From a virus: 20,316 nt of DNA. Positions 5,624 to 18,189 of this stretch are shown here, piece after piece. Each line of letters starts with the position of its first letter. The stretch's first letter is position 1. Made by a program: the position numbers and the translations under genes. The notes beneath the pieces were generated by a model. The model saw only the letters and a program-made list of their open reading frames with translations. It ran no database searches and was not told where the DNA came from. Location of the stretch: positions 1 to 20,316 of IMG/VR virus record IMGVR_UViG_3300046007_004354; one strand, given 5' to 3'.

Positions 5624-6901
5624 TTAATTTAATTCGTTATAATTGTTTCCGGTTTTTATACGTACAGGGTATTGTAATTTTGCGATTATATCGTTGATTT
5701 TATCGCGTTCTTCGCGCGAAACATCAATAAGTACGGAGTCATACGTGTAAAGTATTATGCGTGATTTTAGTGGTCTAAAGTCATTAAATAATGAATATAG
5801 TTGCGCTACGTTTTGTGATGTTTCGTAGTTTTGAATATAATAATTAAGTATTTTTTGTGGACTAGGATTGTCAATATCCTTTAATCTAAAGCGTTTTCCA
5901 GATGGAGTATCAATAAACCCTCCATATTGAATTGTATCCCATAAATCGTCTGTAAATGCTTGTATACTTTTAAAAAAGGGCTTGTTTTGCAATTCAGGTC
6001 TAATACCTCCGTATAAGTTTTGGAATGTTATTTCTTTAACTTTAGATATATCTTTATTATTTAATATTTTTGCTATTTGCTCGTACACATTTGTTTCCTT
6101 ATCAAAGTTATAATTTACAAGTGTGCCGAGGAGACGTGGATGATATCCGTTAAAGTCGATTTCAATAAATAAATCGTTGCGGGGTACGAAACAGGAGCGT
6201 TCGCCGTTTTCCTTATTTAAGGCAGCAAAATTTATACTGTTAAAGGCGTTAGAAGGGCGGCTAGTAAGAGTAAGTAAATTATAAGAAGTATAAATATATC
6301 CTTGTCTAACTGAAAAATGTGGCGTAGGATGTTCTTCATGATATTTAATAAAGCATGTTTTGTCTAATTTAATGCCTTCCTTTTCTATTTTAAAAAACAC
6401 CTCAATCGCCTTGTTCATGGCTTCGGTATTTTTATGTAGGTAAGGCTTTACTACACTATAAATATTTTCACAATATTCATAATGTTTGGAAATTGGAATA
6501 AGTTCATTAATATTCTTTAACGAACCATGCTCACGGTAGAAATTAGAAACGATATTTGGTTCACATCCACCAAAATCAAATCTACCACTTTCCTGTAGCG
6601 CATAATGAAACGAAGCATCATTAATTTTACCACTAAGGAAATATTTTGTGTATTTTGCATCTGCAGCATATAACTCCTTTTCTGATAAATATTTTTTGAT
6701 TGTTTGCCATTTTAAACTAAGTGATTCTGTATGTTTAATACAAAATATATATCCTTTACTTTCAAATGGTTTTACATATATAAGCGAAACATCGGCAATA
6801 GCCGGATGATAATTGCTGTTGTTTGTAATTATGTGAACAAAACATTTATCAAAGGGGGGTATGTGTTGTAACTGTTCTTCTTTTTCGACTATATAAAACA
6901 T
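5624..6901 (-). CDS. Family A DNA polymerase-like protein, short and lacking an active exonuclease
   Basis: A 425-residue protein whose C-terminal 220 residues carry the family A polymerase signature in the right order. Motif A is FIEIDFNGYHPRLLG, with catalytic Asp249 standing for the DxSQIELR motif. Motif B (O helix) is KEITFQNLYGG, with Lys289, Phe293 and Tyr297 at the spacing of E. coli Pol I Lys758, Phe762 and Tyr766. Motif C is TYDSVLIDV, with Asp388 in place of the Asp of HDE. The usual glutamate is Ser and the usual His is Tyr. The segment TSRPSNAFNSINF near 212-224 fits the template/primer TGR.S..PN.QN block. The N-terminal 150 residues may be a degenerate 3'-5' exonuclease fold: the usual DxE is not visible. 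It is far shorter than Pol I (928) or T7 polymerase (704). It could be the replicase or an accessory polymerase. No family B gene is visible in this window. Confidence 0.78.
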   Translation of the reverse strand: MFYIVEKEEQLQHIPPFDKCFVHIITNNSNYHPAIADVSLIYVKPFESKGYIFCIKHTESLSLKWQTIKKYLSEKELYAADAKYTKYFLSGKINDASFHYALQESGRFDFGGCEPNIVSNFYREHGSLKNINELIPISKHYEYCENIYSVVKPYLHKNTEAMNKAIEVFFKIEKEGIKLDKTCFIKYHEEHPTPHFSVRQGYIYTSYNLLTLTSRPSNAFNSINFAALNKENGERSCFVPRNDLFIEIDFNGYHPRLLGTLVNYNFDKETNVYEQIAKILNNKDISKVKEITFQNLYGGIRPELQNKPFFKSIQAFTDDLWDTIQYGGFIDTPSGKRFRLKDIDNPSPQKILNYYIQNYETSQNVAQLYSLFNDFRPLKSRIILYTYDSVLIDVSREERDKINDIIAKLQYPVRIKTGNNYNELN

Positions 6902-6939: not shown

Positions 6940-7410
6940 TTATGTTACCAAAAATTCTCTTAATCCAGGCATTTGTTTATTAACGTCTTCTAATGTTTGT
7001 GTTTGTGAATTGTATGATATTACTTGAAAACTAGGATCATTTCTTTGAGATAATGTATTAAATGTTTTTTGATTTACTTCTTTAATTTTAATATCCTTTA
7101 CAGTTAAATCTTTATAAAAATAACGAGTAATATTTGATTGATCACTTAATAAAGAGTTTGCTTGTGTTACTAACGAACCAGCAGCAGCTACTGCACCAGC
7201 AGCTGCTTGTATAATACTATATTTTTCTAATGGTCTAGATGTTTTTTCATCATATGTTTTACCACTAAAATATTTACTACCATTTACTATACAATAAAAT
7301 CCTATATAAGGAATTTTTGATCTTACAAAACGTAAAGCAAGATTTTTTCCAATACCAGTACCATTAGTATATTGGTTTTCTACAATTCTATTTTTTGGTA
7401 TTTGTATCAT
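6940..7410 (-). CDS. Putative tail/baseplate-associated protein of unknown function
   Basis: A 156-residue protein I do not recognise. Its ATG overlaps the hub gene stop as TAATG (7408-7412), so it is probably co-translated with the hub and may be a virion or tail-assembly protein. It has a basic N-terminus, a compact segment IPYIGFYCIVNGSKYFSG around residues 33-50, an alanine-rich stretch IIQAAAGAVAAAGSLV around 66-81 that could be a short hydrophobic helix or turn, and a C-terminal polar part. No enzymatic motif is visible. It is the last gene of the tail group before the replication genes. Confidence 0.72.
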   Translation of the reverse strand: MIQIPKNRIVENQYTNGTGIGKNLALRFVRSKIPYIGFYCIVNGSKYFSGKTYDEKTSRPLEKYSIIQAAAGAVAAAGSLVTQANSLLSDQSNITRYFYKDLTVKDIKIKEVNQKTFNTLSQRNDPSFQVISYNSQTQTLEDVNKQMPGLREFLVT

Positions 7411-10400
7411 TAAAATATTATTTTAATATCTTTTACTCCAGTAAATCCTCCACCATCTCTTCCACCAGATGTTCCTGTAGGGGTATATTTTAATGTTATT
7501 CCTAAAGTTGCAAGTTTTGCTCGTATAGTATCTGTTGTTTCTATATCTCCTGATCCAAGTTCACTATCAAGAATATTTTGTAAACCATTTGTTGAGCCTA
7601 ATAGTCTATTTACTTCAGCAAATGTTATTCTATCTGGGATTAAATTAATAGCATCAATGAGTTCTTGTTCGTTTGTTCCTCCTCCTTCAGTAGCACCTTT
7701 AATTAAATCAGCAATATATTGAGGATTAGTATTTGAAGATGATGTTTCTGTTCCTGCTTCTGAGGCGCCTATAGCTCCTCCAGATACAGGGCCCCAATAT
7801 TCCCAGTGCCAAGCTTCATCCATTTTAACTCCATCTTTTAATCTTGGTGGATTTATCCAACCAAATCTAGCAGCATTTGCATTAAGCCATTTATATAAAT
7901 TATTATTATTTCTTACATTAGCATTTATAAGTGGGTTGCTACTACCGCCAGCTGCTGTAAATAGTTGTTGGATATCAACTGCGGCTCCCCAGCCATGAAT
8001 AGAACTTCCAGCTGGAGCTGCTACATTTGGGTTTTCAGTAGCCGTTGCTCGTTGGCGTTGAAGATTTCTATAAGCTGCTCCTGGTAGGTATGAGATATGA
8101 AATTTACCTACTGTGTATCCTGCTTTTCTTGCTTCTGCTACTAGGGCTTCCCATTGAGTAGCAGCTGATGGGAATAATTGATGTATGTTATTAGACTGAG
8201 GATCATCTGGTATTTTTAGATTGCGTAATAGTACTTCTCCGCTTGTGCTAGTATTTGGTATTTGGCCATTTTTATATCCTAATCCTTGTAAGTATTTAAC
8301 TACAGGAATATTACTCCTTTTAGGAACTTTACCATCTAAAAGAGGAGCCGTAATTATTGGTTTCCCATCAGCCCCTTTTAATACAACATTACTAGGAGCA
8401 TTAGCATATTCTTGACCATTCCATTTTTTCCATACTGGGTTTGTTTCTGATGTTTCTAGAATTATAGGATAAGCATATATGTTAGTAATCCAGTCATTAT
8501 TACTAATACTATGACCTAATTTACCAACTAAATATCCTAATTTCCTTCCAACAACAGACTGATATCCTTTAGGGACAATATCTTGATTTATTGTAAATAT
8601 ATTTCCTATTACAATACCCCCTATACCATCCATTTCAACAGATAATTCTGTTGGTATAATTGCTTTAAAAGCATTTTGTGGATCAAATCTATTAAGATTT
8701 GCTAAAAAGTCTCTATAGGCAAAATCTAATCCACCGTATGATAAATTAGCATTATTTGTTCCTTCACCATTTAAAGCACTAAAGTAAGCATATATTTTAG
8801 TTAAAAAAGGAAGTATAAATGAACCTGGGCTTTCTGTGTCTTCTAAACTAATAGCTGCTGAGAAATCTTTTTTAGGTATTAATCTATCTTGAACACCTGC
8901 ATTCCATGCTACTAATGTAGCATTATCATATCCCATTTTTCCAACAGCTGTTGGATCTTGAGCACTAATAGCTATAATAGACCCCATTTCTGGGAATATC
9001 TTGGAGCTGAATTTGTAATTTCTTACTGTGGAACTTAAATTATGAATTTGTAATGGAAAAGCATCTAATTTAGGATCTCCTGTAAAATTAATATCTATAA
9101 TTCGACCTACAGCATTTCTTTCATCTACTTGAATATCAAAACTATTAATATTTCCTATACTATTTTGTATTTGTCTTAAAATATTTTGAATATATTCTCT
9201 GATAGCAATAGTATTTTTACCTTGAGGGTCATTTGAGGCTACGTTTTTTGAAATAGCTTGATCAATCAAAAAATCCATGTTAACATATATGTTACTAATA
9301 TAGCCTAATGATTTTCCAGATTCTGTTGCATTTTCTACTAAAAATGGTAATATATCACTTGTCAAACCAGGAACGTCAGTAGCAACTTTTGCAACATCAG
9401 CTGCTGCTTCTGCTGTTTGTCTATTAATTAATGCTTGTACATCTGATGAAAAAGGAGCTTTTGTAAAACTATTTTTTATTTTGTTTCTTAATGCATTATT
9501 ATCCCATTTTATTTTAGAGTCATATATATCTTCATTCCAAGCATCTCCTAAAAGATCTTGAAGAGTAAAGTCTATTTGTTCTTCTAAAGAAGCAAGAAAT
9601 GCTGTGTCGGTATCTTCTTCTACAACTCTTGTATTAAAATAATCAAAAAACCTAATAAATCTTGTTGGTTCTTCTGCTGTTGATACAAATGAATTTGCAT
9701 CTAATAATGTAAATTTAGGAACTAATTTACCTCCAACTTCTTCTAAACTAACTTTTGTAATAGCTTTTTGTAAGTCATCAATGATTTTATCTATTTCTTC
9801 ATTTAAATCTCCATTAAAACGATATACTCCACTTGTTTCGGATATATTACTTAAAAATCTTGCTTCTCCTACGCGAGTTAAGTCAAAGCTAAAAGCAACA
9901 TTCCCAGTAGTAATACTACTTCTTATATCATCAGGAACAACTGTGCTTACTGATGTGTCGGTATCTACTTCATCTTGTCTAGTTTCATTTTCAGTTACAG
10001 TGGCATTTAATCCAAGCCAGTTATTATTTCTAATAAGACAAATACCATAATTAGTTGATAATGATAAAGGACTAGCAATACATCTTAATGATTTAGGTAT
10101 AACTGATTTATTTGAGAGTGTTTCAGTTAATGGAACTCCATTTGATCCTAATTCGTATGTAGTTACTCTGGATAAAGGATTATCATTTCCATCTTTTAAT
10201 AAAACATAGTTATTAAGTAAATCACAAAAACTACCTAATGAAATATACCCTTCAGTACCCTTTTCGTTTGAAAAATATTTTGGTAATCCTCCTCTATCAA
10301 ATTTTTCTAAATTACCTGATCGTTTGATCATGAATAGTTGATACTTATTCTTATATTTTGGATCTGTAACTTCTCTAGAATAACTTAAACTATTTCCAGA

Positions 10401-11300
10401 GTTTGCATTTTTATTCATATAGTGAAATAACTCTGCAAGTAGGCCAGGTATAATTCCTTTTTCATAGTCATTAGTAGGTGTAAATCCAGTACCATCAGGG
10501 TATTCCCCACGAGGAGCCAAAGTACCTCCACTATCTGTTGTAGCACCACCTAAAATACCTGTATTAGAAAAAGAAGTAGATTCCATCGGAATCCAATTAC
10601 ATTTTAGTGATTCTAATACCTCACCTAATGATATAATTGTAGTAGAACAATCATAACCACCATCATCACGAGCGTTCCAATTATAATTTTTTACATAACC
10701 AAGTAATGCATCATAATTACCATTACTATCTTCAATCAATTTATATATTTGAGCAAAAGCCTTGTTTAATGATATTTCTTTTTGATTTAAAATATCATAT
10801 GATGGGATTGTTGGTTTAATATAGTTCCATCCAAATTCTAAAAGTACAGTATATCCTGGGCGCATATAAAGTAATTCTAGGTCTTCTAATTGTCTTATAT
10901 CCCAAGCTATAAAATTTACAGTAGCTTCTTGTAATGAACCATAAGCGCCTTTAGAAGCAATAGAAACATTAGTAATACCGGGCATTGGACGAATACCTAA
11001 TCTGTTTAGATTTCCTCCAGGAGATAATCTATCATAAGTAGATGTTGCATCTCCACCTAATCCTTTTCTTAATGAAGTATTATTTAATAAAGTACCACCT
11101 TGTAAAACATATTTTGTAGCTAGTTCGTTATTTAATTCATTTTTACTATTAACAGTATTAACACCAGAAGTCATCCTTACCCAAGCAGATCTTGTGTTTA
11201 ATTCATGAAGAAAACCAGGAGTACGTGTACGCATTCCTGTTTGTCTTCTATCTATCTCGTTTCTTATAAACTTTGGAAAGGATTCTCTAAATATAGACAT
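7410..11300 (-). CDS. Baseplate hub/spike protein with embedded M15 zinc peptidase domain
   Basis: A 1296-residue tail protein. Residues about 105-160 contain a hub-like stretch (ATVNFIAWDIRQLEDLELL, then MRPGYTVLLEFGWNY). Another part with a hub-protein look lies near 900-945 (GKLGHSISNNDWITNIYAYP). Residues about 1060-1170 form an M15-family peptidase, as in VanY/VanX and phage L-Ala-D-Glu or DD-peptidases. The zinc ligands are His1102 and Asp1109 in SSIHGWGAAVDI and His1165 in DEAWHWEYWG, with Glu1162 as the likely catalytic base. This domain would cut peptidoglycan cross-links during tail penetration. Residues about 1206-1270 resemble an annexin-type repeat (GGGTNEQELIDAIN, then LQNILDSELGSGD). 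The gene lies between the LysM-like gene and a coupled 156-codon gene. The M15 call is strong. The hub call rests on size, position after the tape measure gene and these segments. I see no separate gp5-like lysozyme gene. Confidence 0.85.
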   Translation of the reverse strand: MSIFRESFPKFIRNEIDRRQTGMRTRTPGFLHELNTRSAWVRMTSGVNTVNSKNELNNELATKYVLQGGTLLNNTSLRKGLGGDATSTYDRLSPGGNLNRLGIRPMPGITNVSIASKGAYGSLQEATVNFIAWDIRQLEDLELLYMRPGYTVLLEFGWNYIKPTIPSYDILNQKEISLNKAFAQIYKLIEDSNGNYDALLGYVKNYNWNARDDGGYDCSTTIISLGEVLESLKCNWIPMESTSFSNTGILGGATTDSGGTLAPRGEYPDGTGFTPTNDYEKGIIPGLLAELFHYMNKNANSGNSLSYSREVTDPKYKNKYQLFMIKRSGNLEKFDRGGLPKYFSNEKGTEGYISLGSFCDLLNNYVLLKDGNDNPLSRVTTYELGSNGVPLTETLSNKSVIPKSLRCIASPLSLSTNYGICLIRNNNWLGLNATVTENETRQDEVDTDTSVSTVVPDDIRSSITTGNVAFSFDLTRVGEARFLSNISETSGVYRFNGDLNEEIDKIIDDLQKAITKVSLEEVGGKLVPKFTLLDANSFVSTAEEPTRFIRFFDYFNTRVVEEDTDTAFLASLEEQIDFTLQDLLGDAWNEDIYDSKIKWDNNALRNKIKNSFTKAPFSSDVQALINRQTAEAAADVAKVATDVPGLTSDILPFLVENATESGKSLGYISNIYVNMDFLIDQAISKNVASNDPQGKNTIAIREYIQNILRQIQNSIGNINSFDIQVDERNAVGRIIDINFTGDPKLDAFPLQIHNLSSTVRNYKFSSKIFPEMGSIIAISAQDPTAVGKMGYDNATLVAWNAGVQDRLIPKKDFSAAISLEDTESPGSFILPFLTKIYAYFSALNGEGTNNANLSYGGLDFAYRDFLANLNRFDPQNAFKAIIPTELSVEMDGIGGIVIGNIFTINQDIVPKGYQSVVGRKLGYLVGKLGHSISNNDWITNIYAYPIILETSETNPVWKKWNGQEYANAPSNVVLKGADGKPIITAPLLDGKVPKRSNIPVVKYLQGLGYKNGQIPNTSTSGEVLLRNLKIPDDPQSNNIHQLFPSAATQWEALVAEARKAGYTVGKFHISYLPGAAYRNLQRQRATATENPNVAAPAGSSIHGWGAAVDIQQLFTAAGGSSNPLINANVRNNNNLYKWLNANAARFGWINPPRLKDGVKMDEAWHWEYWGPVSGGAIGASEAGTETSSSNTNPQYIADLIKGATEGGGTNEQELIDAINLIPDRITFAEVNRLLGSTNGLQNILDSELGSGDIETTDTIRAKLATLGITLKYTPTGTSGGRDGGGFTGVKDIKIIF

Positions 11301-13862: not shown

Positions 13863-13870
13863 TATAAATA
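13863..13870 (-). promoter_or_regulatory. Candidate promoter element TATTTATA after the tape measure gene
   Basis: The minus strand reads TCAATATTTATATTAAAC just after the tape measure stop, 32 nt before the ATG of the 91-codon gene. The ATATTTATA form is identical to the elements before the tape measure, gp26-like and tube genes. A promoter role is inferred. Confidence 0.42.
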
Positions 13871-13875
13871 TTGAA

Positions 13876-16236
13876 TTATGCTAAATTAGTGTTGTACATT
13901 AGTTGAGCAGTACCCACTGTTTGCGCACCAATATTTACTTTTGCTTCTTTATTGTATAATCTATCTACACCTTTATTAGTATTTTTCATTTCATCACGTA
14001 AACTAGCAAGCATATTTACTACTTCTGTGTTATCTTGTGTTACAACTGTTTGTTTATTTGTATTAGCAATCATGTCTCCTAAACCAGGAGCAGCGGCTAA
14101 TTCATCATTATCACTTAATGAAAATAATCCACCTTCTTTAGTTGATACTACTGTTTTACCACCTGATGAAAACATATCGCCCACTGGTTGTGCTGCTTCT
14201 TCTTTAGAGTCCATAAAAGCAGCCATCATTAAACCAATACCAGCAGCAATAGCAATAGCTCCTATACCAAATGTCATAGCTGATGCTGCTGAAATAGTGC
14301 CAGCAGCAAGTATACCAGCTTGTACAGCAGATGCTGCTAATCCAGCTACTAATTTTACAAATGAAATACCAGCCATTAATCCTAAAGTAGTATATAATAC
14401 AAATGAATTTTCCATTAAACCAGCTATCATATCAGCTAATTGACCTAAAGGACCTCCTACTATTCTACCAATTATATCTTGCATTTTTTCCATTGCAAGA
14501 TTAAATTTATCTTGTGCACTTAATGCTTCCAAGCGTTTAGCTACTTCTTCACCTCCCAATGCAGCAACTTCTTCTCTTGATTTACCCATATATTGTTGCT
14601 TCAATAATTGGTCGGATAATTGATCTGATGTTGTTCCTAATGATGCTGCTAATTTATCTTGAGCAATAACATTCATTTGAGAAAACTTATTAAAGTCAAT
14701 ATTTTGACTATTAAGTTCTTTCATTACTGTTGTTAAATCACCAGCCAAAGAAGCACTACGGGCTCTTTCTAAATTTAACTGTTGTCCAGTTAATAATTCA
14801 GCTTGTAATTCATTACTAATTGATGTTTCAAAATCAAGTAATGATGATGCTTGCTTACGTACTGTATCTAAATTAGTACCTAATAGCTTTGCTTGAGCAA
14901 CAGCTTGAGCTAATGCAGGAACATCAGCTTTAAACATAGCTAGTGTTTGCCCTGATATTTTTCCTATTTCTTCAAGTACTTCTCTTTGATTTAACTGAAT
15001 ACCATACTGTGAAGATAATGCTTGTGATACTCCTAGAGCAGTAGTTTTAGAACTTTCTAGCGTGTTGCCAGTAGCAATAGATAATTTAGCCAAACCACCA
15101 GCTGCTTCTTCACTTAATCCAATTTGCTTAGTTAATTTAACAAATTGAACATTTAAATCCTCAGTAAATCTAGAACTAAATCCTAATTGTGCTCCTAAAG
15201 CAATAGTAGCTTCAATTAATCTATTTGTATTAATAGCTATATCACCTGAAGATTCAGCCATATTATTAAAGTCTTGCCTTAAATCATATGCTTCATCTCT
15301 ACTTAATACTAAGTTCTTTTGTAATTTAGTAACTTGATCTGATATACCAAAAGCAAATTTCTTAATAGCATCAAAAGCTGCAACTAGTGGTGCTATTAAA
15401 GCTCCTGCTTCTCTAACACCACTCATAAATGTTGAAAAGTTTTTACTTTGTAACTTGCCTTGTAGTGTTTGTTCTTTTAATGCTTGTAATAATGCTTCAG
15501 TATTTTTAATTTGGTCTTCATAAAGCTTTTTTAAAGCAGCATTATTTGCAATAAGTTCTTTTACTTTTCCTAATTCTTTTGTTTTTTGTTCTATTTGTTT
15601 TTGAATAGAAACTTCTCCTCTTTCTAAAGCACGTACATATAGATCTTGATCTTTGATTTGTTCTCTAAGATCCTTCATTTGGTCTTTTATACCTTTACGT
15701 CTATATGCTTGAGCATTATTAAGTTGAGTTTGTTTATTTATTAATTGTTGGGTTAGATTATCTAACTTTGCAGATTCATTACTTATTTCTTTTTGTCTAT
15801 TTACTTTATCTGCTTCAAGATCGCTTAATTTTCTTTGAAGAGCAGCTTGTGCTTGAATAAATCTATTATTTCTTTCAAAAGATTTACCACTACTATTTAT
15901 GTAATCCTTATATTTTTCTTGAAGGTTATTTAATTGTTCTGTAACTTCAGCTACCTTTGCTTTTCCACTTGCTACTCTTTTAACAAGTTTTTCTGTAATT
16001 TCTAGTTGTTGTCTGTATTGGCTAAGTTCATCTACTAATTTTTTATTAGCGCTAGTAGAAAGATTAAGATTTGGAGGAAGTTTACTTACTTGACTTGAAA
16101 GCTGTTTGGCCAAATCAACAGATTCTTTAAGAGCATTATTATATTGAAGTAATGCCTCCTGTGCACTCTGTATACCTTTTGGGTTTGGAGAGTTTGGATT
16201 ATTTGGGTTGTTCGGGTTATTTGGAGTAACAGCCAT
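13876..16236 (-). CDS. Tail length tape measure protein
   Basis: A 786-residue tape measure-type protein that would set tail length inside the tube and be ejected with the DNA. The N-terminus has PNN repeats (residues 5-19). Residues about 30-275 are a long coiled coil rich in Gln, Lys, Leu and Glu. Residues about 280-590 are helical and alanine/leucine rich. A strongly hydrophobic region follows at about 610-674 (FVLYTTLGLMAGISFVKLV and FGIGAIAIAAGIGLMMAAF), ending before the polar C-terminus. Such hydrophobic segments are usual in tape measures and may help cross the inner membrane. It is longer than T4 gp29 (590), so the tail may be somewhat longer than that of T4. The gene directly follows the gp26-like gene and its frameshift extension, the expected place for chaperone and ruler genes. 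Confidence 0.9.
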   Translation of the reverse strand: MAVTPNNPNNPNNPNSPNPKGIQSAQEALLQYNNALKESVDLAKQLSSQVSKLPPNLNLSTSANKKLVDELSQYRQQLEITEKLVKRVASGKAKVAEVTEQLNNLQEKYKDYINSSGKSFERNNRFIQAQAALQRKLSDLEADKVNRQKEISNESAKLDNLTQQLINKQTQLNNAQAYRRKGIKDQMKDLREQIKDQDLYVRALERGEVSIQKQIEQKTKELGKVKELIANNAALKKLYEDQIKNTEALLQALKEQTLQGKLQSKNFSTFMSGVREAGALIAPLVAAFDAIKKFAFGISDQVTKLQKNLVLSRDEAYDLRQDFNNMAESSGDIAINTNRLIEATIALGAQLGFSSRFTEDLNVQFVKLTKQIGLSEEAAGGLAKLSIATGNTLESSKTTALGVSQALSSQYGIQLNQREVLEEIGKISGQTLAMFKADVPALAQAVAQAKLLGTNLDTVRKQASSLLDFETSISNELQAELLTGQQLNLERARSASLAGDLTTVMKELNSQNIDFNKFSQMNVIAQDKLAASLGTTSDQLSDQLLKQQYMGKSREEVAALGGEEVAKRLEALSAQDKFNLAMEKMQDIIGRIVGGPLGQLADMIAGLMENSFVLYTTLGLMAGISFVKLVAGLAASAVQAGILAAGTISAASAMTFGIGAIAIAAGIGLMMAAFMDSKEEAAQPVGDMFSSGGKTVVSTKEGGLFSLSDNDELAAAPGLGDMIANTNKQTVVTQDNTEVVNMLASLRDEMKNTNKGVDRLYNKEAKVNIGAQTVGTAQLMYNTNLA
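16180..16224 (-). repeat. Imperfect 9-nt PNN-coding tandem repeat at the tape measure N-terminus
   Basis: Codons 5-19 of the tape measure gene are imperfect copies of a 9-nt unit encoding Pro-Asn-Asn (reading PNNPNNPNNPNSPNP). The unit uses mixed synonymous codons, so the protein repeat appears to be kept. It probably forms an extended linker. Confidence 0.7.
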
Positions 16237-16252
16237 AGTAAATTATTGCAGG

Positions 16253-16260
16253 TATAAATA
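16253..16260 (-). promoter_or_regulatory. Candidate promoter element TATTTATA before the tape measure gene
   Basis: The minus strand reads CAATATTTATACCTGCAATA, with the octamer 16-23 nt before the tape measure ATG. It comes 2 nt after the perfect hairpin at 16263-16290. The arrangement of hairpin then element suggests a terminator or processing site followed by a new start. The role is inferred from recurrence of the octamer. Confidence 0.42.
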
Positions 16261-16262
16261 TT

Positions 16263-16290
16263 GAAAGCGCCCTATTTTTTGGGCGCTTTC
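16263..16290 (-). terminator. Perfect 10-bp hairpin overlapping the stop of the frameshift extension
   Basis: GAAAGCGCCC and GGGCGCTTTC form a perfect 10-bp GC-rich stem with an 8-nt A-rich loop. The stop codon TAG of the frameshifted reading frame (16272-16274) lies in the loop/stem junction. The 3' side on the minus strand reads AATATTTATA rather than a clean U-run, so it may be a weak terminator, an mRNA stabiliser or a processing signal. The stem itself is clear. Confidence 0.6.
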
Positions 16291-16532
16291 GCAGTATATG
16301 TTGGTGCTTTAGGTACTTTAGGTACGTTAGGAGTTCGAGCTTTTGCGGCTTGTTGTTGTTTTTCTGTATCTTTTGCTTGTTTTTCGTAATGTTCCCTAAT
16401 CTGATTGTATATAAAATTACGATGATATATGGGCAGGTTATATACAGTATCCCAATCGTACCCACCTTGACCGTAAAATACTATTTCATGTATACGAGTA
16501 AATAAATACTCTCTATATTTAGGCGTCAGGCC
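16272..16532 (-). CDS. Frameshift extension of the gp26-like tail assembly protein (86 codons)
   Basis: This open frame begins immediately after the T7 run and is in the +1 frame relative to the gp26-like gene. It encodes 86 residues starting GLTPKYREYLFTRIHEIV and including GQGGYDWDTVYNLP and FIYNQIREHYEKQ, and ends in a Lys/Pro/Ala-rich tail (KVPKAPTYTAKAPKK). It contains no ATG, GTG or TTG codon, so it can scarcely be an independent gene. A +1 slip on TTT-T gives a fusion of about 333 residues; a -2 slip gives 334. This is the arrangement of the G/GT-type tail assembly chaperones that lie directly before tape measure genes in many phages. The sequence shows the open frame and slip site. 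Actual shifting is inferred. A sequencing indel in the T-run is the main alternative. Confidence 0.72.
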   Translation of the reverse strand, partial: GLTPKYREYLFTRIHEIVFYGQGGYDWDTVYNLPIYHRNFIYNQIREHYEKQAKDTEKQQQAAKARTPNVPKVPKAPTYTAKAPKK

Positions 16533-17274
16533 AAAAAAAGTTAATATTAATTGGTATGACTACGCCCTCCTGTACGTAGCCATCTTTATCAACTGTAATG
16601 ACGGTATCAATATCAGGAGAAACATCATTGTAATATTTTTTAAATGCTCGTGAGTCTGGAGCAAGTAAATAATTATCTACAAAATCACGAATTGATGCTT
16701 GATCTGATTTTCCATTAATAGATGTAATCATGTGCTTTAAACGAGTAGTGTTTTCAAAAGCATTATTTGGATCTGCTTTTTGTAAACCTTTAACTTCAGC
16801 ATCAATTGCTTTTTCATCTTTACCCGTTAATAGCTTAAATGTAATGATGTTGCCTGATTGAGGTAGAGTAAATTTGAATTCATTTTTGCCCTTAGTAAAT
16901 AATGATTCATTGATTTCTTTTTCTTTAAGTGTAGTTAAATCTACTGTGTAGTCATCTTCTTTACCTAGTGATTCATTTCTAAACCTAAATGAATAATCTT
17001 TACCATATCCTAAGATACGAGCCGAGAATAAAATAGCATTTTTATCTCCTGTAATTAAATCATCAATGTCAATTGGTGTAACAATAAGTGATTTTAGCAA
17101 TTTATCAATTGCGGTTCCTTGCTTAATAAAGTTAATGTTAGTTAGTATGTCTTCATCTTTAGCAGACATGTAACGCATTTCAATTTCACCTTTAGCGAGC
17201 AATGAATCTTCGGGATATACAAGACCTTTTGATGGTAGTGTAACCGTTTCTGTTGGAATTTTTAATTCAGCCAT
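16519..17274 (-). CDS. gp26-like baseplate hub assembly / tail assembly chaperone, short frame
   Basis: A 251-residue protein with the look of the T4 gp26 baseplate family: an N-terminal LPSKGLVYPEDSLLAKGEIEM segment, then MRYMSAKDEDIL and LLKSLIVTPIDIDDLITGDK. It continues as an alpha/beta domain and ends NFFWPDA. In T4 this family is needed for hub assembly. Here its place just before the tape measure gene and its apparent frameshifted extension point to a tail assembly chaperone that would hold the tape measure during tube growth. The ATG is preceded by an A/T-rich leader and a TATTTATA element 31 nt away, and upstream of that lies a hairpin terminator. This makes the gene the first of a new transcription unit. 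Family assignment is by remembered motifs, not alignment. Confidence 0.75.
   Translation of the reverse strand: MAELKIPTETVTLPSKGLVYPEDSLLAKGEIEMRYMSAKDEDILTNINFIKQGTAIDKLLKSLIVTPIDIDDLITGDKNAILFSARILGYGKDYSFRFRNESLGKEDDYTVDLTTLKEKEINESLFTKGKNEFKFTLPQSGNIITFKLLTGKDEKAIDAEVKGLQKADPNNAFENTTRLKHMITSINGKSDQASIRDFVDNYLLAPDSRAFKKYYNDVSPDIDTVITVDKDGYVQEGVVIPININFFWPDA
16533..16539 (-). other. T7 slippery site, candidate programmed +1 or -2 frameshift
   Basis: The gp26-like frame reads AAC TTT TTT TGG here. A peptidyl tRNA-Phe on the second TTT can move forward one base or back two and still pair fully with TTT. The window where both frames are open is only about 40 nt, because the new frame has a TAG just upstream near 16560 and the old frame stops at 16519. 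The T-run is the only slippery sequence in it. Confidence 0.65.
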
Positions 17275-17297: not shown

Positions 17298-17305
17298 TAT
17301 AAATA
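17298..17305 (-). promoter_or_regulatory. Candidate promoter element TATTTATA before the gp26-like gene
   Basis: The minus strand reads TTATATTTATATATATAAA, with the octamer 31 nt before the ATG and about 29 nt after the hairpin terminator at 17334-17355. A terminator followed by this element is good positional support for a promoter. Surrounding AT repeats make chance occurrence easier here than at the other sites. Confidence 0.42.
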
Positions 17306-17662: not shown

Positions 17663-18154
17663 TTAGTAGTTTAAGATACAGTAATCCATTCCGATAGTCA
17701 TGGTAATGTTGATAGCTTCAGTGTAAGTAGACCAGTTATAATCGCCAAAGTTTGATGTCTTAATAAAGGCACCTTTAACGATCCACTCTGATACTACATC
17801 ACCTACTGGACCTAAACCATTAAATGTTAAGTCTTTTTTATAGAAATCAGAATAACCAGCACGGCCAGTTACTGATTCGTATGCTAAACGAGCCCATTCC
17901 ATTACAGCTTGAGCACCACTTGGAGCAATTGGATCAAATAAAGTGAAGGTTAAATCTTGCCATAATCTTTTACCACTACGTATTTTTCTATAGGTGTTAA
18001 TATGGTCTAATATAATTTCACCATCATCGAAGTTCACTCCAGATACACCTTTTACAAGGAATGATGGAATACCATTTATGTACATGATGAACCTGTTAGG
18101 AACTTTAGGTTCATACTGTGTAAACATAATTTCATTTGGATTTAATACAGGCAT
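17663..18154 (-). CDS. Tail tube protein, T4 gp19-like
   Basis: A 163-residue protein, the same length as T4 gp19, whose hexameric rings build the inner tail tube. Typical features are the N-terminal PNRFIMYINGIPSFLVKGVSG segment, ILDHINTYRKIRSGKRLWQDLTFTLFDP, a helix SGAQAVMEWARLAYES, and the C-terminal strand pair TYTEAINITMTIGMDYCIL. It follows the sheath gene after a 39-nt gap with a TATTTATA element and precedes a small charged gene. The ATG has an A-rich leader (AAATACAACATAAA). The family is confident from sequence pattern, length and order. Confidence 0.93.
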   Translation of the reverse strand: MPVLNPNEIMFTQYEPKVPNRFIMYINGIPSFLVKGVSGVNFDDGEIILDHINTYRKIRSGKRLWQDLTFTLFDPIAPSGAQAVMEWARLAYESVTGRAGYSDFYKKDLTFNGLGPVGDVVSEWIVKGAFIKTSNFGDYNWSTYTEAINITMTIGMDYCILNY

Positions 18155-18181: not shown

Positions 18182-18189
18182 TATAAATA
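18182..18189 (-). promoter_or_regulatory. Candidate promoter element TATTTATA before the tail tube gene
   Basis: The minus strand reads AAGAAATATTTATAACAAAC in the sheath-tube gap, just after the sheath stop and 35 nt before the tube ATG. The ATATTTATA core is the same as at three other tail genes. Tail tube protein is needed in high copy, which would fit its own promoter. The role is inferred. Confidence 0.45.

Follow-up and report, generated by a model that had tools for sequence, protein, structure and literature searches.

Phage T4 gp26 and gp51, which PMC3004832 lists as hub assembly chaperones, and phage lambda gpG and gpGT, which bind the tape measure protein (PMC5009743), are the closest described counterparts of the locus presented in this study. 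According to a review from 2016, chaperone frameshifting is widely conserved among phages with long tails, "except T4" (PMC5009743). According to papers that cite their study, Vladimirov, Gautam, and Davidson (Virology 2022) identified the T4-like chaperone genes, some of which are frameshifted and some of which occur as two genes; the same papers describe separate short and long genes in some T4-like phages and poly-T -1 signals in T4-like TAC-N genes (PMC10885494, PMC12846349). As the study is cited there, the logic of short and long forms was already known for gp26; its extension to a gp26-type gene, which an earlier note on this DNA had proposed, thus holds but is not new. On the other hand, no report of a +1 direction in T4-like chaperones was found in the literature, in which the 2022 study is represented by the papers citing it, and this direction seems to be the new part. 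Other +1 frameshifts are described in capsid or tail tube genes of the phages Listeria PSA and SPP1, where proline CCC codons slip, while the tail gene of HSTV-2 is only "very likely +1" (PMC5009743).

The window, i.e., the whole stretch of DNA analyzed, comprises 20,316 nucleotides of the virus record IMGVR_UViG_3300046007_004354. Its minus strand carries, in order, the genes for the tail sheath (assigned from position and the annotation of relatives) and the tail tube, an 85-amino-acid open reading frame, the gp26-like gene, the extension, and the tape measure gene, so that the gp26-like gene lies between the tail tube and tape measure genes, as in the T4-type chaperone family. The features of the locus are as follows.

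17663..18154, minus strand: tail tube protein gene (phrog_4542 tail tube, E = 6e-13)
16519..17274, minus strand: gp26-like gene, putative short form of the tail assembly chaperone (TAC-N), 251 amino acids (PF12322 and phrog_150 matches; zero-frame pN/pS 0.19)
16565..16572, minus strand: Shine-Dalgarno (SD)-like element CAGGAGGG, candidate 5' stimulator, 25 nt upstream of the first slip codon (constancy of GAG; dG)
16533..16539, minus strand: putative slip site, Phe codons TTT TTT followed by T(GG) (UUU-Y step kept in 164/165 +1-group loci)
16272..16559, minus strand: +1-frame extension (TAC-C) (pN/pS 0.28; homology to -1 tails and the gp51 tail; modeled as helix, short helix, and long helix)
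13876..16236, minus strand: tape measure protein gene (matched by BLASTP, E = 5e-33, to the tape measure protein annotated in Flavobacterium phage immuto)

The gp26-like protein matches PF12322 (E = 3.8e-7, above the gathering cut-off) and the "baseplate hub" profile phrog_150 (E = 4e-13). Its gene ends with ATT AAC TTT TTT TGG CCT GAC GCC TAA, in which the T-run occupies 16539-16533 and the stop codon 16521-16519. The +1 frame is open from 16559, directly after a TAG at 16562-16560, overlaps the zero frame for 38 nt up to the zero-frame stop, and ends with a TAG at 16274-16272; the tape measure gene starts 35 nt past this stop. The two Phe codons are followed by 86 codons of the +1 frame (16532-16275), giving a predicted fusion product of ~333 amino acids, and neither ATG, GTG, nor TTG occurs anywhere in the extension. 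The earlier note had read this region as a gp26-like frame ending shortly after the T7 run (AAC TTT TTT TGG ... GCC TAA), a joint open stretch of ~40 nt, and 86 +1 codons lacking these three triplets, with a junction at F247-G248, and the sequence agrees on each point, the numbering being correct for the +1 product (F246-F247-G248).

A first search of genome contigs found no close relative. A scan of IMG/VR supplied a comparison set of 80 relatives. The +1 frame runs 229-289 nt past the zero-frame stop in every relative that is long enough (80 IMG/VR loci). Among 29 unique close relatives, pN/pS is 0.28 in the extension and 0.19 in the zero-frame gene, and 0.98 and 2.38 in the other two frames of the extension DNA. 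A wider scan, with a profile built from the distant phages named below, added 80 viral loci and 10 loci from metagenome-assembled genomes, i.e., 90 distant loci, of which an automatic rule called 83 as +1 and 3 as -1, with 4 falling under the 120-nt length cut-off. Inspection of two of the three -1 calls showed TTT TTT TGG CCT, which is probably +1; the third (L273) is a true exception in the +1 group, with TTC TTC TGG and an extension apparently open in the -1 frame. The same layout was observed in the isolates Flavobacterium phage immuto, Microcystis phage Mel-JY01, Bacillus phage SP-15, Listeria phage LIS04, Streptococcus phage SagM-GXN1, and Rhodothermus phage RM378, as well as in the uncultured LR756508; when used as queries against IMG/VR, RM378 and SP-15 matched only themselves. 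Locus counts in this study include near-identical contigs, except where they are given as unique. Recurrence in relatives and purifying selection at the codon level confirm that the +1 layout is far beyond chance.

In S-PM2, P-SSM2, HTVC008M, phiM12, and Cr30, the phrog_150 match falls on two pieces of DNA that overlap and differ in frame, the second piece covering approximately the last 50 positions of the profile. This second piece lies in a clean -1 frame in S-PM2, P-SSM2, phiM12, and Cr30, and the -1 frame of HTVC008M was seen separately. T4 has two intact PF12322 genes, gp26 (208 amino acids) and gp51 (249 amino acids), of which gp51 is longer by a C-terminal tail. Because the direct hhalign match between the +1 extension and the gp51 tails is weak, the -1 tails were used as intermediates: the +1 tails match the -1 tails with a probability of 94% (P = 9e-8), and the -1 tails match the gp51 tails with a probability of 97% (P = 6e-11). 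Judged by these profile matches, the extension is homologous to the out-of-frame tails of cyanophage gp26 and, via them, to the T4 gp51 tail. The predicted helices of the extension (H5-21, H28-32, and H36-66) resemble those of the tail in the gp51 model (H206-221, H226-230, and H234-248). Foldseek of the extension alone against BFVD gave no significant structural match, and Pfam and PHROGs gave only weak matches to it, including phrog_634 "baseplate hub assembly catalyst" (E = 0.13-0.35) and phrog_32580 "tail assembly chaperone" (E = 0.07). The -1 tails of KVP40 and S-PM2 carry an annotation of their own, as a "gp51"/hub assembly catalyst gene, and the KVP40 record itself notes similarity to a 40-amino-acid stretch at the C-terminus of T4 gp51.

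In a tree of the N-terminal domain, the +1 and -1 loci cluster strongly by direction, with 4 changes vs. a shuffled mean of 15.6. T4 gp26 and gp51 are placed together beside KVP40, a -1 phage, in this tree, in which several branches are long and weakly supported; from this placement, the T4 gene 26/51 pair is likely a duplication within a frameshifting lineage. The jumbo phages GAP32 and XacN1 have a -1 extension (TTT TTC and TTT TTT) and lie near +1 loci, which is perhaps a change of shift direction, although long branches make the placement unsure. Campylobacter phage CP220 has two unlinked PF12322 genes (225 and 244 amino acids), somewhat like T4, and this pair is possibly a second duplication.

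The T7 run is present at the junction, as the earlier note had stressed, but the homopolymer is dispensable as a slip signal: the extension is conserved in the shifted frame in relatives that read TTT CTT TGG, TTT CTA TGG, TTC TTT TGG, TTC TTT CGT, or TTT TTT TAC, the run being interrupted in several lineages. What stays constant is the Phe codon UUU with a U or C directly after it, located in a frame overlap that leaves few codons available for a shift in the +1 group. Of 165 loci, 164 permit cognate +1 re-pairing, in which tRNA-Phe moves from UUU to UUU or UUC. A phage Mu-type -2 shift of the ribosome on the T7 run would yield the same extension with one extra Phe. Frameshifting of this type is known to occur in tail chaperones, and cognate -2 re-pairing is permitted by the U7 of the window and possible in 150 of the 165 loci; however, it is barred in the remaining 15 (TTT CTT TGG, TTT CTA TGG, TTC TTT TGG, TTC TTT CGT, and TTC TTC TGG), all of which except the TTC TTC TGG locus permit +1. 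The frame that had been described as "+1/-2" is confirmed; within it, the re-pairing counts favor +1 slippage of tRNA-Phe as the more likely step, and a -2 shift appears unlikely.

A canonical -1 site (X XXY YYZ) does not describe the window, where the extension lies in the +1 frame and TTT TTT is preceded by a C. In contrast, all 80 cyanophage (S-PM2)-type loci read NNT TTT TTC, i.e., the canonical -1 heptamer U UUU UUC; the putative shift direction of the window is unusual, as had been suggested. Because this heptamer needs a T before the first Phe codon, T is found there in 80/80 -1 loci vs. 8/165 loci of the +1 group; by re-pairing and by the preceding base, the +1 and -1 directions therefore have separate signatures at the Phe-Phe site. 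As for a downstream RNA structure acting as a stimulator, no strong fold was found (mean z = -1.2).

Upstream of the slip site, the codons CAG, GAG, and GGC vary little or not at all among 34 unique close relatives, and GAG is used at the element in 34/34 even though the gene-wide GAA:GAG ratio is 525:70. The mean dG of the SD-like element is -10.5 vs. -4.4 in synonymous shuffles (z = -26, 56 unique loci), and in immuto a GGAGG core occurs in a different codon register at about the same distance from the slip. Among 87 unique wider loci, the SD-like excess lies 20-26 nt upstream (z of about -10), and the best SD-like sites are mostly 14-28 nt upstream, 54 of the 87 reaching -8 kcal/mol or lower. 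The SD-like peak of the -1 group is found 8-10 nt upstream, which is the usual place for a -1 stimulator. The element is missing from one locus (L067), and SD-like 8-mers are not uncommon in the coding DNA of the window; therefore, the evidence is the evolutionary constancy of the element and not its mere presence. At 14 of 16 gene starts in the window there is essentially no SD pairing (dG near 0). A far-upstream SD-like element in phages whose genes do not use SD sites seems to be new. The near-absence of SD sequences before the start codons is as in Bacteroidota; together with relatives that infect Flavobacterium and Rhodothermus, it suggests that the host of this phage belongs to the Bacteroidota.

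The extension could also be a separate protein with its own start, either a non-AUG start or termination-reinitiation. The tails of S-PM2 and KVP40 are annotated as "gp51" genes of their own, an ATG or GTG lies close to the zero-frame stop in 49 of 80 -1-type relatives, and ribosomes could be recruited by the SD-like element. As a ribosome entry for the extension, however, this element was rejected, since the +1 frame of the window is closed by a stop right after it and no start lies at the right distance. An independent start codon in homologues was what the earlier note had named as evidence against a shift, and 48 of 49 unique +1 extensions have none within 12 nt of the zero-frame stop; as the extension of the window likewise has no ATG, GTG, or TTG, a separate start is very unlikely. 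Transcriptional slippage, by which the loss of one U or the gain of two on the T7 run would join the frames in part of the mRNA, has in its favor a homopolymer exactly at the junction, but seven T is short and the run is broken in several lineages that have the same extension, which makes this explanation highly improbable. A sequencing error, a pseudogene, or a chance open frame has a negligible probability and is refuted by the comparison, with the same frame relation found in about 160 contigs and several isolates and under purifying selection.

Very probably, then, this single gene encodes a short form and, by a +1 slip, a frameshifted long form of the T4-type tail assembly chaperone. The programmed shift into a start-less extension proposed in the earlier note is supported by the conservation, selection, and homology of the extension, and the homology to tails of the gp26/gp51 type leads to the assignment of the locus to a chaperone with two forms, whose function would, by homology, be that of gp26 and gp51. 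We infer the frameshift, its efficiency, and the +1 step from the sequence of the locus and its relatives. Most ribosomes would stop at TAA and release the 251-amino-acid short form, the presumed counterpart of T4 gp26 and lambda gpG. In a fraction of ribosomes, the P-site tRNA-Phe would move one base forward, off its UUU codon and onto the UUU (UUC in relatives) that overlaps it, probably with UGG still unread in the A site. These ribosomes would read 86 more codons to produce the long form, whose C-terminal helical domain would be the counterpart of the T4 gp51 tail and make the protein an analogue of lambda gpGT. Both forms may associate with the tape measure protein, the product of the neighboring gene, and protect it, and the long form may couple it to the assembly of the tube or hub. 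A broader proposal, which is tentative and on balance doubtful, is a new +1 recoding signal that consists of a UUU-Y slip, a sense codon in the A site (mostly UGG), and an SD-like stimulator 14-26 nt upstream that would pair with 16S rRNA, all in phages whose own starts are SD-free; the chaperone family would have moved back and forth among -1, +1, and gene duplication (T4 26/51).

Several other features were observed in the window. A hairpin formed by GAAAGCGCCC and GGGCGCTTTC spans the stop codon of the extension (16263-16290, minus strand; -19.6 kcal/mol, z = -6.9). A fold of -10 kcal/mol or better is found there in 41 of 42 relatives, with arms that change yet match; the hairpin is terminator-like with no clear T-run, and its stems and loops are one base out of register among relatives. 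The sequence TATTTATA occurs on the minus strand at 13863-13870, 16253-16260, 17298-17305, and 18182-18189, approximately 17-28 nt upstream of four structural gene starts, and is possibly a late promoter element, its total count in the window being not clearly above chance. A VanY D-Ala-D-Ala carboxypeptidase domain (PF02557, E = 5e-12) lies close to the C-terminus of a 1296-amino-acid tail-region protein (7410-11300, minus strand), and a 425-amino-acid protein (5624-6901, minus strand) shows a weak match to DNA polymerase A (PF00476, E = 5e-4, below the cut-off).

The long chaperone form predicted here is missing from the annotations of a large, mostly uncultured group of T4-like phages. At the Phe-Phe end of this protein, the direction appears to be +1 in the group vs. 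-1 at the equivalent position in other T4-like phages, which provides a natural experiment on frameshift direction, with the base preceding the first UUU, the codon in the A site, and the SD position as variables. The conserved far-upstream SD-like element is a testable stimulator in hosts that perhaps do not start translation by SD sequences.

The +1 frameshift of E. coli prfB takes place at CUU UGA with an SD sequence 3 nt upstream. The window resembles it in the proposed +1 slip of a P-site tRNA and in the SD-like sequence upstream, and the CTT TGG of relatives resembles the prfB slip codon; however, the A-site codon is a stop in prfB and UGG in the window, where the SD-like spacing is 25 nt (mostly 14-26 nt in the wider group). 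PSA, SPP1, and HSTV-2 share +1 recoding in phage structural genes, whereas PSA and SPP1 use a CCC slip in different genes and the window a putative UUU-Y slip in a chaperone gene. Similar to lambda gpG/gpGT, a short chaperone and a predicted frameshifted long form are encoded just before the tape measure gene; the shift is -1 in lambda and probably +1 in the window, and the likeness described here is one of layout. The S-PM2, P-SSM2, KVP40, and phiM12 types have a -1 U UUU UUY heptamer with an SD-like sequence 8-10 nt upstream, whereas the window has a +1 arrangement with the SD-like element 25 nt upstream. With the T4-like TAC-N/TAC-NC pair (T4 gp26/gp51), the locus shares PF12322, the place before the tape measure gene, the short and long forms, and a homologous C-terminal tail; T4 has two genes for these forms, and the window has one gene with a probable +1 shift at UUU-Y.
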